NCBI RefSeq assembly: GCF_029207735.1
Contig: NZ_CP104395.1
Location: forward strand, 788,692 to 852,691
Direction: 5' to 3'
Origin: Candidatus Nanohalococcus occultus
GTDB lineage: Archaea; Nanohalarchaeota; Nanosalinia; Nanosalinales; Nanosalinaceae
DNA: 64,000 nt
Shown: piece by piece, positions 29,430 to 34,606 of the stretch
Layout: every line of letters starts with the position of its first letter
How positions within the stretch are numbered: position 1 is the first letter of the stretch
Program-made: the position numbers and the translations under genes
Notes under the pieces: generated by a model
What the model was told of the DNA's origin: nothing
The model's input: the letters and a program-made list of their open reading frames with translations, nothing else
The model's database searches: none

Positions 29430-29855
29430 ATGAACAAAGAATTCGACTGGCTTACATTGGACAGCGATGAAGAGGTTATATGGCACGGCAACCCTAAAAT
29501 CCAGCGTTTAATCGGCTTCACTTTCACGGACTACGTTGTGACAAATCAGGCGCTTTACAGGAAATCCGGGATCTTCAGCCGGAACGTACAGAAAATCGGG
29601 CTGGACAAAGTTCAAAATATCTCATTTAGCCAGGGGCTGCTGGGCAAAAACTTTGGATACGGAAACGTCGATATCAGCACAGCAGGTGGCAGCGGAGTTG
29701 AGATGAGGTTCCTTGGAATCCAGGAACCGAAAACCGTACAGGAGACGATCAACCGGCAGACAAAGACCGATAAGAAAGGATCGGAAAAGACAGAAAAAGA
29801 TCTGTTGAAAGCTATTCTCGGCGAACTACAGGAGCTAAACGAGAATCTAAGCTAG
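29430..29855 (+). CDS. Bacterial-type PH (bPH2/YdbT-like) domain protein
   Basis: A 141-residue protein with a PH-like core at about 10-105: EEVIWHGNPKIQ, then FTDYVVTNQALYRKSGIFSRNVQKIGLDKVQNISFSQGLLGKNFGYGNVDISTAGG. Most bPH2 proteins carry adjacent membrane helices; this one has none and ends in a charged helix (EKDLLKAILGELQELNENL). Molecular role unknown. Its end overlaps the convergent lyase gene by 4 bases. Confidence 0.85.
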   Translation: MNKEFDWLTLDSDEEVIWHGNPKIQRLIGFTFTDYVVTNQALYRKSGIFSRNVQKIGLDKVQNISFSQGLLGKNFGYGNVDISTAGGSGVEMRFLGIQEPKTVQETINRQTKTDKKGSEKTEKDLLKAILGELQELNENLS

Positions 29856-30550
29856 CCGAGGTACTCTCCGTCTTCCCTACGGAAGTCCTCTTCATCCATT
29901 TCCTCATGTACATGCGCTACGAGACCTGGTGTTCGCGCGATTATGAATATTCCTTTTCCAAGCCTGTGATCCCAGCCGAGATCGCTCATGATACCTGCGA
30001 TCGCTCCGTCAACGTTTAACACCAATTCGACCTTTCTCTCGGAAAACTCATCTCTGATCTCACAAATTTTCTCGGTGAACTCTCCGCGTATCCCTAGCTC
30101 CTCTGCTTTCTCCAGCATTTTACTGGCTCTAGGATCCTCGTCTTTGTAGATCTTGTGGCCGATTCCTGGAATGGTCTCGCCTTTCTCGAGTTTTTCCTCT
30201 ACTATCTCTTCAGCGGATTTCTCGCTCTGGATCATTTTCATACAGTCTTCGATAGCTCCGCCGTGTTTGTCACCTAAAGCAAGTATTCCGGCCGCAACAG
30301 AAGTGTTCATGCCGTTGCCTCCGCTCTGTACGGTTCGGGCCGAGACGGTTGAAGGATTTCCTACGCCGTGATCGATAGAGCTTGAGAGAATAGTTTTGAA
30401 CATCTCCGATTCGTTCTCCGAAGGTTTCTCTCCTTTAAGCACGAGCCAGATAGCATCGGAAAACTCCATCTCCATTACCTCCTCGAGCTTTTCTCCACGT
30501 ACCTCTGGGTCCTCACCTGACTTCGATATGTTTGTTTTCCAGTCAGTCAT
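29852..30550 (-). CDS. Citryl-CoA lyase-like protein (citrate synthase fold)
   Basis: A 232-residue protein of the citrate synthase superfamily, short like citryl-CoA lyases and the C-terminal domain of ATP-citrate lyase. Motifs are SSSIDHGVGNPSTVSARTVQSGG (first catalytic His region), LGDKHGGAIEDCM and PGIGHKIYKDEDPRASKML (second His, then DPR). The large N-terminal domain of true citrate synthases is missing. It lies at the end of a four-gene operon with SucC- and SucD-like subunits (4-base overlaps), which suggests citryl-CoA cleavage to acetyl-CoA and oxaloacetate. Confidence 0.75.
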   Translation of the reverse strand: MTDWKTNISKSGEDPEVRGEKLEEVMEMEFSDAIWLVLKGEKPSENESEMFKTILSSSIDHGVGNPSTVSARTVQSGGNGMNTSVAAGILALGDKHGGAIEDCMKMIQSEKSAEEIVEEKLEKGETIPGIGHKIYKDEDPRASKMLEKAEELGIRGEFTEKICEIRDEFSERKVELVLNVDGAIAGIMSDLGWDHRLGKGIFIIARTPGLVAHVHEEMDEEDFRREDGEYLG

Positions 30551-30882
30551 GCGGTACCCTCTCTGCCGCTTATTGTCTCTATGATATCATTCCAGGGCTT
30601 GGCCCCCGAGTTATCATGTAACTCATTTTCCGGACTGAAAGACATTCTGACGATCGAATGACCGGTCGGAGTAACCTTCACACTGTACTCCAAATTCCCA
30701 TTAACCACAGTGGTTTTAGGACAACCATCTTCCTCTTCGTTTACAAACTCGTATCCGTTGCGGACCGCATGTTCCTGTAGCTCGTAGTTTTCGATTATAG
30801 GCTCTCCATCTACGGCACTATAAGTATTTCTCAGCTCAACCCTGTTTTCCTCTTCGTAAGTATCTCGGAACGGCTCACTCAC
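30547..30882 (-). CDS. Hypothetical protein inside the citrate-cleavage operon
   Basis: A 111-residue acidic soluble protein with probable strand-rich core (GNLEYSVKVTPTGHSIVRMSFSPE) and no motif I recognise. It overlaps the SucD-like gene upstream and the lyase gene downstream by 4 bases each, so it is translated with them. A small extra subunit or adaptor of the enzyme complex is a reasonable guess. Confidence 0.65.
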   Translation of the reverse strand: MSEPFRDTYEEENRVELRNTYSAVDGEPIIENYELQEHAVRNGYEFVNEEEDGCPKTTVVNGNLEYSVKVTPTGHSIVRMSFSPENELHDNSGAKPWNDIIETISGREGTA

Positions 30883-31769
30883 AGCAGATCACCCAGTTTA
30901 CCCTGTATCTCATGGTGTTTATCGACCACATATGCGCCTGCGTCTCTCAGCTTTTTCTTTTTAACCGATGGCTTACCCGAATCTCCACGTATGATCGCTC
31001 CAGCATGACCATAGTTACGGGACGGAAGGTTCTCCGTAAACTCTCCTGCGATGAACGCAACCAAGGGCTTGGTGAAATTCCCGTTCTCAATTAGCTCTGC
31101 GGCCTCCTGTTCGTATGTTCCGCCTAGCTCTCCATACATTACAACGACCTCTGTTTCCTCATCTTCTTCGAACTCTTTAAGCGCATCGGCGAAAGTTGTG
31201 CCGGCCAAGATGTCACCTCCGATTGCTACTGCGGTCGATACCCCATATCCTGCCTGTTTGATCGTCCAAGCCGTCTCAGTTGTCATCCCTCCGGACTTCG
31301 AGATAATACCTACCTTTCCTTTATCGTAAGCTTTCCCAGGCTGGTTTCCGCCGATTGGACCTAGCTTACATTCCTCTGGCGTCATGATACCTACAGAGGT
31401 CGGGCCTACAACGGTCACGTTGTTTTTCTCGGCTTTTCGAAGTATCTTCCAAGTGTCTTTGACCGGTATGCGCTCGGTGATAATATTAAGCAACTCTATG
31501 TCGTTTTCAATCGCCTCAAAGGCTGCGTCTTTCGCCGCAAACGGCGGGACGTAAATTAGAGACGTGTTTATACCTGGATTTTCATCCATTGCCTGTGCAA
31601 CCGAATCGTATACTGGCACGCCCGCAACTTCTTTCCCTCCTTTGCCCGGAGTTACTCCGGCAAGGACTTCTGTTCCATACTCTAGCATCTCCGGGACTTT
31701 CTCCGATGCCTCTCTGCCCGTTATTCCCTGGACAAGGACTTTCGTGTCTTTGTCTACGAATATACTCAT
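30879..31769 (-). CDS. SucD-like acyl-CoA synthetase alpha subunit (citryl-CoA synthetase/ACL type)
   Basis: A 296-residue protein with an N-terminal CoA-binding Rossmann domain (VLVQGITGREASEKVPEMLEYG) and a ligase domain. IGGDILAGTTFADAL and MYGELGGTYEQEAAELI are the typical phosphate-site segments. The phospho-histidine is in YGHAGAII. Length equals SucD. Its partner here is an ATP-citrate-lyase-like beta subunit, so the substrate may be citrate rather than succinate. It overlaps both neighbours by 4 bases. Confidence 0.88.
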   Translation of the reverse strand: MSIFVDKDTKVLVQGITGREASEKVPEMLEYGTEVLAGVTPGKGGKEVAGVPVYDSVAQAMDENPGINTSLIYVPPFAAKDAAFEAIENDIELLNIITERIPVKDTWKILRKAEKNNVTVVGPTSVGIMTPEECKLGPIGGNQPGKAYDKGKVGIISKSGGMTTETAWTIKQAGYGVSTAVAIGGDILAGTTFADALKEFEEDEETEVVVMYGELGGTYEQEAAELIENGNFTKPLVAFIAGEFTENLPSRNYGHAGAIIRGDSGKPSVKKKKLRDAGAYVVDKHHEIQGKLGDLL

Positions 31770-32908
31770 TTTTCGTCCTCCTTGAATGCTTCGACCATCT
31801 CCATCAGGGTTTCAGCTGTCTCTGTCATCGGCGTGTCGTTTCTAAACAGTTTCATGTTCAGATCGAGTTCTTCTTTTTTCTCGCGGAGTAGTTCGAAGGC
31901 TTCATCGGCGTTCGGCCCGTCTCTCCGTATCACAATAGGATAATCAGGTTTTTCCTCTTCGAGAGCCTGAACGAAGCCTTTCATCGTTCGGAGAACGTCG
32001 GTGTTGTTTGCGGTGCCTCCGACGTGCCAGAGGCCGTTTAGCTCTTTCGACATTATGACTTTCGAGAGCTTGTAGACTTTCTCGGTCGGCGGGTTTCCGC
32101 CGTACTCGGTGTAGTTCGCCGGCTTTCCTCCGCATGCGATCAGCGCATCCATGTTGGTCAGTGATGCGCCTCCGCCGGCAAGCATCATTCCTATGTCTCC
32201 TTCCAGCTCGGTGTATTTGCCTGCGACTCCGCGATGGTCGTTTTCATCTATCTTTTTCGCTCTGATCTCTCTGCTGGTTTTTTCCCGATCAAAGGCCGAA
32301 CGTTCCGGATAATCCCAGCTGTGCCGATAACTAGCGTCGTCGTCAAGATCCATCATAGCATCCAGGATAACATAGCCATCGTCTGTCTTCGCTAGAGGAT
32401 TTATCTCGAGCAAACGCCCGTCGGCTTCCAAGAAGGCTTCGAACAGTTTCTGTAGCTCCATGCCGAGCTTGATTATTTCCTTGCCTTCGAACCCGTTTTC
32501 CGCCAGGAACTGTCTGAAACGGAACTGCGAAGTGTCTTCGAGCGGCAGTTTTGAGACTTCTCTGTTTTCTATGCCTGTTCCGCCTTCTTTCGAGAAGATT
32601 AATGCCGGTTTACGGGTTTCGGTGTCGTAGGTAAAAGATACGTAGTATTCTTCCTGGAAATCTATTTTTTCTTCGATTAAAACGTCTTGAATATCCTGGC
32701 CTTCGAGCTGGGTGCCTTTAATCTCTTTTTCAAGCGCCTTGGCCTGTTTTTCTCCTTTAGCGAACTTAATGCCGCCGTTTTCCTTTCTATGGTTGGCCAG
32801 AACTTGAGCCTTAACAACGTATTCTTTGTCTCCGTCAAGACCTCGCTGCGGCACTGTCAGACCGTGTTCTTTCAGCAGTTTTTTGGCTTCATTTTCCTGT
32901 AGCTTCAC
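31766..32908 (-). CDS. SucC-like subunit resembling ATP-citrate lyase/citryl-CoA synthetase large subunit
   Basis: About 380 residues with an N-terminal ATP-grasp (KLQENEAKKLLKEHGLTVP) and a C-terminal flavodoxin-like ligase domain. The latter reads MMLAGGGASLTNMDALI, then ANYTEYGGNPPTEKVYKLSKVIMS and GGTANNTDVLRTMKGFVQAL. These match ATP-citrate lyase (AGGGAS, ANYGEYSG, GGxIANFT) better than succinyl-CoA synthetase (NGAGLAM, NIFGGI). GTG 32908 gives the normal family N-terminus; an ATG at 32950 would add 14 residues. First gene of the four-gene operon. Confidence 0.85.
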   Translation of the reverse strand: MKLQENEAKKLLKEHGLTVPQRGLDGDKEYVVKAQVLANHRKENGGIKFAKGEKQAKALEKEIKGTQLEGQDIQDVLIEEKIDFQEEYYVSFTYDTETRKPALIFSKEGGTGIENREVSKLPLEDTSQFRFRQFLAENGFEGKEIIKLGMELQKLFEAFLEADGRLLEINPLAKTDDGYVILDAMMDLDDDASYRHSWDYPERSAFDREKTSREIRAKKIDENDHRGVAGKYTELEGDIGMMLAGGGASLTNMDALIACGGKPANYTEYGGNPPTEKVYKLSKVIMSKELNGLWHVGGTANNTDVLRTMKGFVQALEEEKPDYPIVIRRDGPNADEAFELLREKKEELDLNMKLFRNDTPMTETAETLMEMVEAFKEDEK

Positions 32909-32995
32909 GTCGAAACTTGGTCTTTGAAAACTTAAACAGCTGTGCGGCATGGAACGCCAGCTCCCAGGGAAAAGAATATTTCAGATAAGCGCGGT

Positions 32996-33347: not shown

Positions 33348-33866
33348 ATGGTCTATACAGGCAACGGGGACAGAGGACGGACAGATCTTTCTTCAGGTGA
33401 GAGAGTTTCCAAATCAAGCGAGCGAATCCAGGCGTTCGGCACCGTCGATGAACTGAACTCACTGACAGGTGTCTGTGCGAGCTTCACCGAGGGGAAAAAA
33501 GACGAACTCGAGACGATCCAAAACGAGTTACACATACTACAAGCAGAACTCGCGAACAGAGAGCCAGATACCAAGATAACTCAGGAAAACATCGACAGAC
33601 TCGAAGATCTATGCGACCACTACCAAGACGAATGCCCACCACTGCGCGATTTCGTGCTTGCCGGAGGCTGTAAATCCGCCGCCCAGCTACACAATGCCCG
33701 GAGCGTCAACCGTAGAGCTGAGAGAAAGATCGTTCAACTGGATCAAAACGAAGAAATACGGGAAGAAGTCCTGGCCTACATCAACCGGTTAAGCGACCTG
33801 TTCTTCCTGATGGCCCGACATGAAAACCACTTGAACAATGTGGAAGAGAAGAATCCGGTTTACTGA
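33348..33866 (+). CDS. PduO-type ATP:cob(I)alamin adenosyltransferase
   Basis: 172 residues from ATG 33348 (MVYTGNGDRGRTDL). The N-terminal TGxGDxGxT motif binds ATP. VDELNSLTGVC and the C-terminal RSVNRRAERKIVQL motif are also diagnostic of PduO enzymes that make adenosylcobalamin. An upstream in-frame start would add 13 untypical residues. Its TGA overlaps the lipoate ligase ATG. A user of adenosylcobalamin is not visible in this window. Confidence 0.92.
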   Translation: MVYTGNGDRGRTDLSSGERVSKSSERIQAFGTVDELNSLTGVCASFTEGKKDELETIQNELHILQAELANREPDTKITQENIDRLEDLCDHYQDECPPLRDFVLAGGCKSAAQLHNARSVNRRAERKIVQLDQNEEIREEVLAYINRLSDLFFLMARHENHLNNVEEKNPVY

Positions 33867-34606
33867 TGAACTGGCGATTCCTCAAGTTCGAAAGATACGA
33901 TCCGTTTTTCAAGACAGGATTGAACGATGCCTTGAGTGAATCAGTTAGAGAAACCGGCATACCTGTTGTTTTTCTGGCCGGCTGGAGTAAGAAAACGGTT
34001 AACGTCGGCAGAAGCCAGAGTATCGAGGAAAGAGTCAGTTTGGGAAAATGTGAAGACGATGACATAACCGTTGTTCGACGCCAGGGAGGTGGAGGAACGA
34101 CTTTCCTGACACCTGAAGGAGAGATCACTTGGGGCTTAGTGGCTCCGGACGAGTACTTTCCCGATGATGTAAACCAGATCTACCGGGAAAAATGCGGGTT
34201 GATAGCGGATGCTGTCGAGAAACTAGGTATAGATGCCAGACACGAACCTGTAAACGACGTTGTAACGGAAAACGGGAAGATTTCAGGTTCGACTATCCGG
34301 CGGAAGGACGGCGTTACATACTTCGGAGGAACCTTGCTGTACAAATCAAATCCCAAGGAAATGTTTAGATACATTAAGCCAGGTGACGATAAGAAAAAAG
34401 GCAAACACATCGAAAATTTCAAAGAACGGGTTAGTTCGGTAAGTAAAGAATCAGAGGCCTCATTTGAGGAATCTCAAGAGGCTTTAAGATCCAAGCTCCT
34501 GGAGGGCAAAAACTGGGAGATCTCAGAGCTTACAGAGGGAGAAATCGGCAGAGCCAGGTCTCTTGGAAATAAATACCGTGGCCGTGAATGGTTGTACAGA
34601 GAATGA
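33866..34606 (+). CDS. lplA: Lipoate-protein ligase A family protein
   Basis: A 246-residue biotin/lipoate ligase-fold protein that activates lipoate with ATP and attaches it to a target lysine. TVNVGRSQSIEE, VVRRQGGGGTTFLTPEGEITWGL and NDVVTENGKISGSTIRR (with the catalytic Lys) are the three conserved blocks. The length suggests the large domain only; archaeal enzymes often need a separate small C-terminal protein. The following 120-residue gene overlaps by 4 bases but does not clearly match that small domain. Confidence 0.85.
   Translation: MNWRFLKFERYDPFFKTGLNDALSESVRETGIPVVFLAGWSKKTVNVGRSQSIEERVSLGKCEDDDITVVRRQGGGGTTFLTPEGEITWGLVAPDEYFPDDVNQIYREKCGLIADAVEKLGIDARHEPVNDVVTENGKISGSTIRRKDGVTYFGGTLLYKSNPKEMFRYIKPGDDKKKGKHIENFKERVSSVSKESEASFEESQEALRSKLLEGKNWEISELTEGEIGRARSLGNKYRGREWLYRE

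Follow-up and report, generated by a model that had tools for sequence, protein, structure and literature searches.

A predicted citrate-cleavage operon of Candidatus Nanohalococcus occultus

Citryl-CoA synthetase (CCS) and citryl-CoA lyase (CCL) of Hydrogenobacter and Aquifex (PDB 6hxq and 6hxp), a system also found in Nitrospirae, are built from the separate proteins CcsA, CcsB and CCL and carry a citrate site of the GGTANNT type. In ATP-citrate lyase (ACL), known from Chlorobium (6hxj), Methanothrix (6hxi) and human (ACLY), the SucD-like and citrate-synthase-fold parts are instead joined in one chain, while succinyl-CoA synthetase (SucCD) has the fold and the phosphohistidine loop in common with these systems but lacks the citrate-site motifs. 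Here we describe an operon of the split type, predicted to cleave citrate, on the minus strand of a 64,000-base window from the archaeon Candidatus Nanohalococcus occultus (positions 788692-852691 of a genome consisting of a single contig of 948,351 bases; GCF_029207735.1, NZ_CP104395.1). Its four genes are joined by three overlaps of 4 bases:

31766..32908, minus strand: ccsA-like gene, the large, citrate-binding and ATP-grasp subunit of citryl-CoA synthetase (predicted), with a GTG start
30879..31769, minus strand: ccsB-like gene, the small, CoA-binding and phosphohistidine subunit of citryl-CoA synthetase (predicted)
30547..30882, minus strand: open reading frame (ORF) of 111 aa in a variable slot between ccsB and ccl, predicted to be coding
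29852..30550, minus strand: ccl-like gene, predicted citryl-CoA lyase with a short citrate-synthase fold, 232 aa
31766-31769, minus strand: overlap of ccsA and ccsB, ATGA
30879-30882, minus strand: overlap of ccsB and the 111-aa ORF, GTGA
30547-30550, minus strand: overlap of the 111-aa ORF and ccl, ATGA

An earlier note on this DNA had put the four ORFs at the same place and with the same overlaps, and its description of an operon is confirmed. The ccsA frame is open back to an ATG at 32950, and homology begins at the GTG at 32908 (MKLQENEAKK), the start that had also been chosen before. Homology of the enzyme genes is far past chance (E 1e-25 to 1e-80) and their coding scores are about 0.4. 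The operon is predicted to encode a split citryl-CoA synthetase together with a citryl-CoA lyase, an identity that is well supported by sequence.

The order of the genes is the same as in Nitrospirae and several other bacteria. CcsA has a mean identity of about 38% to bacterial CCS, and carries ACL-like AGGGAS and ANYTEY where the bacterial proteins have FGGGGS and AN[FL]TDI. With ACL, whose overall reaction the operon is expected to share, CcsA has Citrate_bind, AGGGAS, ANYxEY and RR.GP in common at 27-31% identity. In every relative that was read, as in the window, separate genes encode the parts that are fused in ACL. The ccsA-ccsB-ccl order is also that of Micrarchaeota (L069, L076) and Woesearchaeota (L075, L078), whose CcsA is 48-51% and 41-43% identical to that of the window; their CCL is only about 32-39% identical, and bacterial CCLs reach higher values of 43-46%.

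Identity of the encoded enzymes

CcsA contains the Pfam domains ATP-grasp_2 and Citrate_bind (1.9e-25 for the latter), and its best match among solved structures is the large subunit of Hydrogenobacter citryl-CoA synthetase (6hxq_B, 6.6e-63), followed at a distance by ATP-citrate lyase (4.6e-38) and SucC (4.5e-36). The motifs AGGGAS, ANYTEYGG and GGTANNT, claimed for this subunit in the earlier note, occur in it exactly as written there. All 18 family members have GGTANNT and RRDGP without any change; the equivalents are G[AS]IANFT and RRGGP in ACL and GGTA[NS]NT and RR[SN]GP in bacterial CCS, while none of 11 succinyl-CoA synthetases has either citrate-site motif, the aligned stretch being different. 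Both positions align with the loop around Phe347 of human ACLY, which contacts citrate and differs in conformation between the citryl-CoA-bound and product-bound states. The archaeal and Blastocatellia CcsA proteins are mosaics, with ANYTEY as in ACL and the GGNPP and D[HY]RG.AG stretch as in CCS, and the ACL-like AGGGAS is seen in nanohaloarchaea.

CcsB combines the Pfam domains CoA_binding and Ligase_CoA and has motifs of the CCS type, namely SKSGGMTTE (SRSGTLTYE in SucD) and GPTSVG (GPN[TC]PG in SucD), as well as an insertion after KLGPIGG that is common to CCS. The phosphohistidine of these enzymes (His760 in human ACLY) sits in the GHAGA loop, which is invariant in all aligned family members. 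The best NCBIfam models for the two subunits are SucC and SucD, but both scores fall under the curated cut-offs (190.6 against 370 and 310.8 against 336), and the SucCD site motifs are missing from CcsA and CcsB. What is found is the make-up of a CCS: a SucC-like and a SucD-like subunit, a citrate-binding domain and citrate-site motifs.

The last gene exceeds the cut-off of the NCBIfam citryl-CoA lyase model NF004869 (248 bits against 212), and matches the solved structure 6hxp_A at 3.4e-63 compared with 2e-24 for the best citrate synthase. The catalytic residues, two histidines and one aspartate in HGGA, GHK and NVD, are kept in all aligned family members, and the length of 232 aa lies within the span of about 230-270 aa that marks a CCL. 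In a tree with three citrate synthases as outgroup, from which ACL domains were left out, the protein groups with CCLs and apart from citrate synthase (support 100/99). Solved-structure matches and motifs support the split CCS and CCL identity proposed by the earlier note.

Distribution and gene order in relatives

The large subunit was found in 18 of the 18 same-family genomes searched, at 59-78% identity, whereas the other nine genomes of the order gave weaker matches in only two; no relative was found on the viral contigs searched. The ccsA-ccsB-ccl series is colinear at all 17 loci read, and the same order recurs in clusters of Micrarchaeota, Woesearchaeota, Nitrospirae and other bacteria. 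In Blastocatellia/Chloracidobacterium (L072, L073, L074) ccsA and ccsB of the same type are present, and no citryl-CoA lyase was found in the surrounding stretch. Two early metagenome assemblies, J07AB43 and J07AB56, have a frameshift in ccl (L038:4930-5630 and L045:5242-5938), probably through sequencing errors. This distribution, like the mention of the enzyme pair in Nanohaloarchaea in 2016, does not fit the earlier view that such a module is unexpected in a small symbiotic archaeon.

Between ccsA and ccsB, 13 of the 17 relatives carry one or two genes that are not in the window:

L032-L034, L036, L037, L039-L045 and L047: HAD-type phosphatase insertions between ccsA and ccsB, motif mostly FDIGDT

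The inserted phosphatase is possibly a metabolite-repair or regulatory enzyme; no homologue was found elsewhere in the genome of the window, in a search without a positive control.

Metabolic role and direction of the reaction

The earlier note had spoken of a reductive-TCA-type module (TCA, tricarboxylic acid cycle) and had pointed to other TCA genes as a check. Aconitase was found neither in this genome nor in any of the family's other genomes that were searched, and this genome yielded no malate dehydrogenase of either fold, no second citrate-synthase-fold gene besides ccl and no second Ligase_CoA gene. Within the reach of these searches, a reductive TCA cycle such as surrounds the enzymes in Hydrogenobacter and Aquifex is therefore excluded, and the operon appears to stand alone because neither aconitase nor malate dehydrogenase was found. 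A cluster at G000:C1:55-63 kb contains the genes for pyruvate dehydrogenase (PDH), a fused ADP-forming acetyl-CoA synthetase and malic enzyme. Their order, like that of a TctA-like gene near secDF, matches the locus tags published for Ca. Nanohalococcus occultus SVXNc (PMC10266531). Malic enzyme is present in 17 of 19 family genomes compared with 2 of the 9 other genomes of the order (Fisher p 0.0009, a value confounded by shared ancestry).

We put a probability of roughly 85% on a stand-alone, two-step citrate-cleaving system in which CcsAB acts as citryl-CoA synthetase and CCL as citryl-CoA lyase; it most likely runs in the cleaving direction. ATP would phosphorylate CcsB at its GHAGA-loop histidine, from which the phosphate would move to citrate held by CcsA; its displacement by CoA would then give citryl-CoA, which the short citrate-synthase-fold enzyme would split into acetyl-CoA and oxaloacetate. 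In a fermentative, host-dependent cell the acetyl-CoA would go to the ADP-forming acetyl-CoA synthetase, regaining ATP, and the oxaloacetate would go to malic enzyme and then to pyruvate and PDH, or to aspartate. For the first acetate, the ATP spent on cleavage would be balanced by that from acetyl-CoA synthetase, and decarboxylation of oxaloacetate, a known side activity of NAD-malic enzymes, would with PDH give a second acetyl-CoA and one net ATP. With the rest of the TCA cycle missing, the module probably serves fermentation and not carbon fixation, although we infer both the role and the cleaving direction.

Several points weigh against this interpretation. The catalysis assigned to nanohaloarchaeal CcsAB and CCL is predicted from sequence. 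Among solved structures, CcsB matches a SucD first (2yv2, 4.3e-80) and CCS only second (6hxq_A, 2.5e-74). The CcsA tree does not cleanly part the family from SucC: the family is monophyletic (100/100) among Woesearchaeota, Micrarchaeota and Blastocatellia sequences, a group with ACL on one side and, on the other, bacterial CCS and SucC clustered through long branches, and approximately unbiased (AU) tests reject neither a single clade of all CCS-type sequences (p 0.168) nor the family with SucC (p 0.191). Since this tree alone does not decide, it is motifs, domain content and gene order that carry the CCS assignment. The earlier note had proposed phylogeny against ACL, CCS/CCL and SucCD as a check, and the outcome is mixed: the CcsB tree separates the family, bacterial CCS, Blastocatellia and Micrarchaeota from SucD and Woesearchaeota (99/96), CCL falls with the CCLs, and CcsA is not cleanly parted from SucC. 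The last point concerns the supply of citrate:

G000:C1:913697-914794 (L136:3623-4807): TctA-family protein, gene near secDF

In a passage of PMC10266531 the TctA-like protein is suggested as a citrate(isocitrate) transporter. Proteins of this family occur in 48 of 60 archaeal relatives, many of which lack the operon. This makes the annotation as a citrate carrier weak; TctA was dropped as a sign of citrate import and does not show citrate uptake.

The same enzymes might also run in reverse, so that acetyl-CoA from PDH and oxaloacetate would be joined to citryl-CoA, the synthetase would make ATP and citrate would be exported. The overall reaction is near equilibrium in principle (textbook knowledge), PDH is present, no specific citrate importer is evident, and no other citrate-using enzyme was found, so that citrate could be an end product. 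However, the fused ADP-forming acetyl-CoA synthetase already yields ATP from acetyl-CoA without spending oxaloacetate, and no dedicated route to oxaloacetate was identified, malate dehydrogenases being absent and phosphoenolpyruvate (PEP) carboxykinase, PEP carboxylase and transaminases not having been searched. We regard this direction as unlikely and retain cleavage as the preferred one.

The variable slot between ccsB and ccl

The earlier note had treated the 111-aa ORF as an extra subunit and had read the overlaps as a sign of fixed stoichiometry. The ORF has no Pfam, NCBIfam or PDB match. It is probably coding, because its own frame has a codon score of 0.19, whereas the scores of the other frames lie near zero or below. 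Among relatives the gap between ccsB and ccl ranges from -4 to 2379 bases and its occupants differ: L044 (-4), L046 (22 bases) and L045 (38 bases) have an empty or almost empty slot, and elsewhere it holds genes of about 56 to 693 aa that show scant similarity or none. The slots of L033, L035 and L039 contain a PD-(D/E)XK nuclease-like gene followed by a larger gene of unknown family, and in L046 a similar pair is placed after ccl; such pairs are unusual cargo next to metabolic genes.

L033:5011-5850, L035:2828-3712, L039:5410-6309 and L046:3656-4480: PD-(D/E)XK nuclease genes, weakly Cas4-like, each paired with a larger unknown gene beside ccl

A PADLOC scan of the slot genes gave weak Cas4-like matches to the nuclease-like genes only and none to the 111-aa protein. 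The latter resembles the slot gene of L034 at 7.5e-05 (in a small database), and its similarity to the slot proteins of relatives is marginal at 9.6 bits compared with 8.3 for the best of 450 shuffles. In the structures predicted for it and for the slot gene of one relative, which are of low confidence (mean pLDDT 58 and 55), four strands come after a helix, and a PDB search with both reached nothing at E 1e-3. The ORF may belong, in shortened form, to a nanohaloarchaeal protein family that evolves fast.

That the protein is a true fourth subunit or a regulator of the complex seems improbable. Its overlaps with both neighbours, its probable coding capacity and the presence of some gene in the slot of most relatives speak for such a role, but the three empty or near-empty slots, the dissimilar occupants of the others and the marginal similarity speak against it. 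Inserted genes also break the overlaps in relatives, and with them the argument for fixed stoichiometry. The ORF is probably a fast-evolving passenger or regulatory gene in a variable slot, and not a catalytic subunit.

Other readings of the enzymes

The enzymes might activate and cleave another carboxylate, for example citramalate, methylcitrate or malate (as in a malate thiokinase), given that the ligase fold is common to malate-CoA ligase and related systems and that malic enzyme is present in the genome. The malate-CoA ligase model, however, scores only 129 bits against a cut-off of 604, the counterparts of the ACL and CCS site motifs are retained and the lyase groups with citryl-CoA lyases, which makes such a substrate highly improbable. 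An ordinary succinyl-CoA synthetase beside an unrelated citrate-synthase-like gene is hardly credible, since the ranking of the NCBIfam models, the best PDB match of CcsB and the AU result with SucC are set against scores below both curated cut-offs, the Citrate_bind domain, motifs of CCS/ACL type in both subunits and the gene order of bacterial CCS/CCL clusters.

Neighbouring genes

Just beyond the operon, on the plus strand, lie genes for a cobalamin adenosyltransferase and a lipoate-protein ligase (window:33309-34606):

33866..34606, plus strand: lipoate-protein ligase (Pfam LplA-B_cat, 4.1e-36), a neighbour outside the operon

A lipoate-protein ligase is also found near the cluster in a relative (L036:1203-1952, 1.2e-46). 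The enzyme would serve the E2 subunit of PDH, which is consistent with PDH-linked metabolism. Downstream of the operon (window:26286-29192) a protein of 968 aa has a nearly pure charged coiled-coil composition.

Previous reports and significance

A citryl-CoA synthetase/lyase pair was already hypothesised in Nanohaloarchaea in a passage of Vavourakis et al. 2016 (PMC4766312), which rests on annotation and one BLAST identity and is without gene order, family-wide distribution, active-site or neighbourhood data. ACL, CCS and CCL are also noted in a few hydrothermal DPANN genomes in a passage of PMC8091004, whereas the metabolic sections of the later SVXNc paper (PMC10266531) do not mention the module; the literature search was limited to open-licence papers. 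Compared with the 2016 passage, the family-wide conservation, the anatomy of the operon and the mosaic of ACL and CCS motifs are newer here.

We propose tentatively, as a possibility with the odds against it, that the DPANN and Blastocatellia enzymes form a separate old branch, split like bacterial CCS, with motifs of the ACL type and near the form of ACL before fusion, and also that in nanohaloarchaea they are the sole citrate enzyme outside any TCA cycle, tying the energy metabolism of the symbiont to citrate of the host or brine. Motifs intermediate between ATP-citrate lyase and bacterial CCS bear on the evolution of ATP-citrate lyase and citrate synthase. A reduced symbiont lineage keeps a predicted ATP-dependent citrate-cleaving set in every family member searched, while aconitase was found in none of the same-family genomes searched and malate dehydrogenase not in this genome. 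This pattern suggests that nanohaloarchaea and their haloarchaeal hosts are linked in metabolism, in a way that can be tested.

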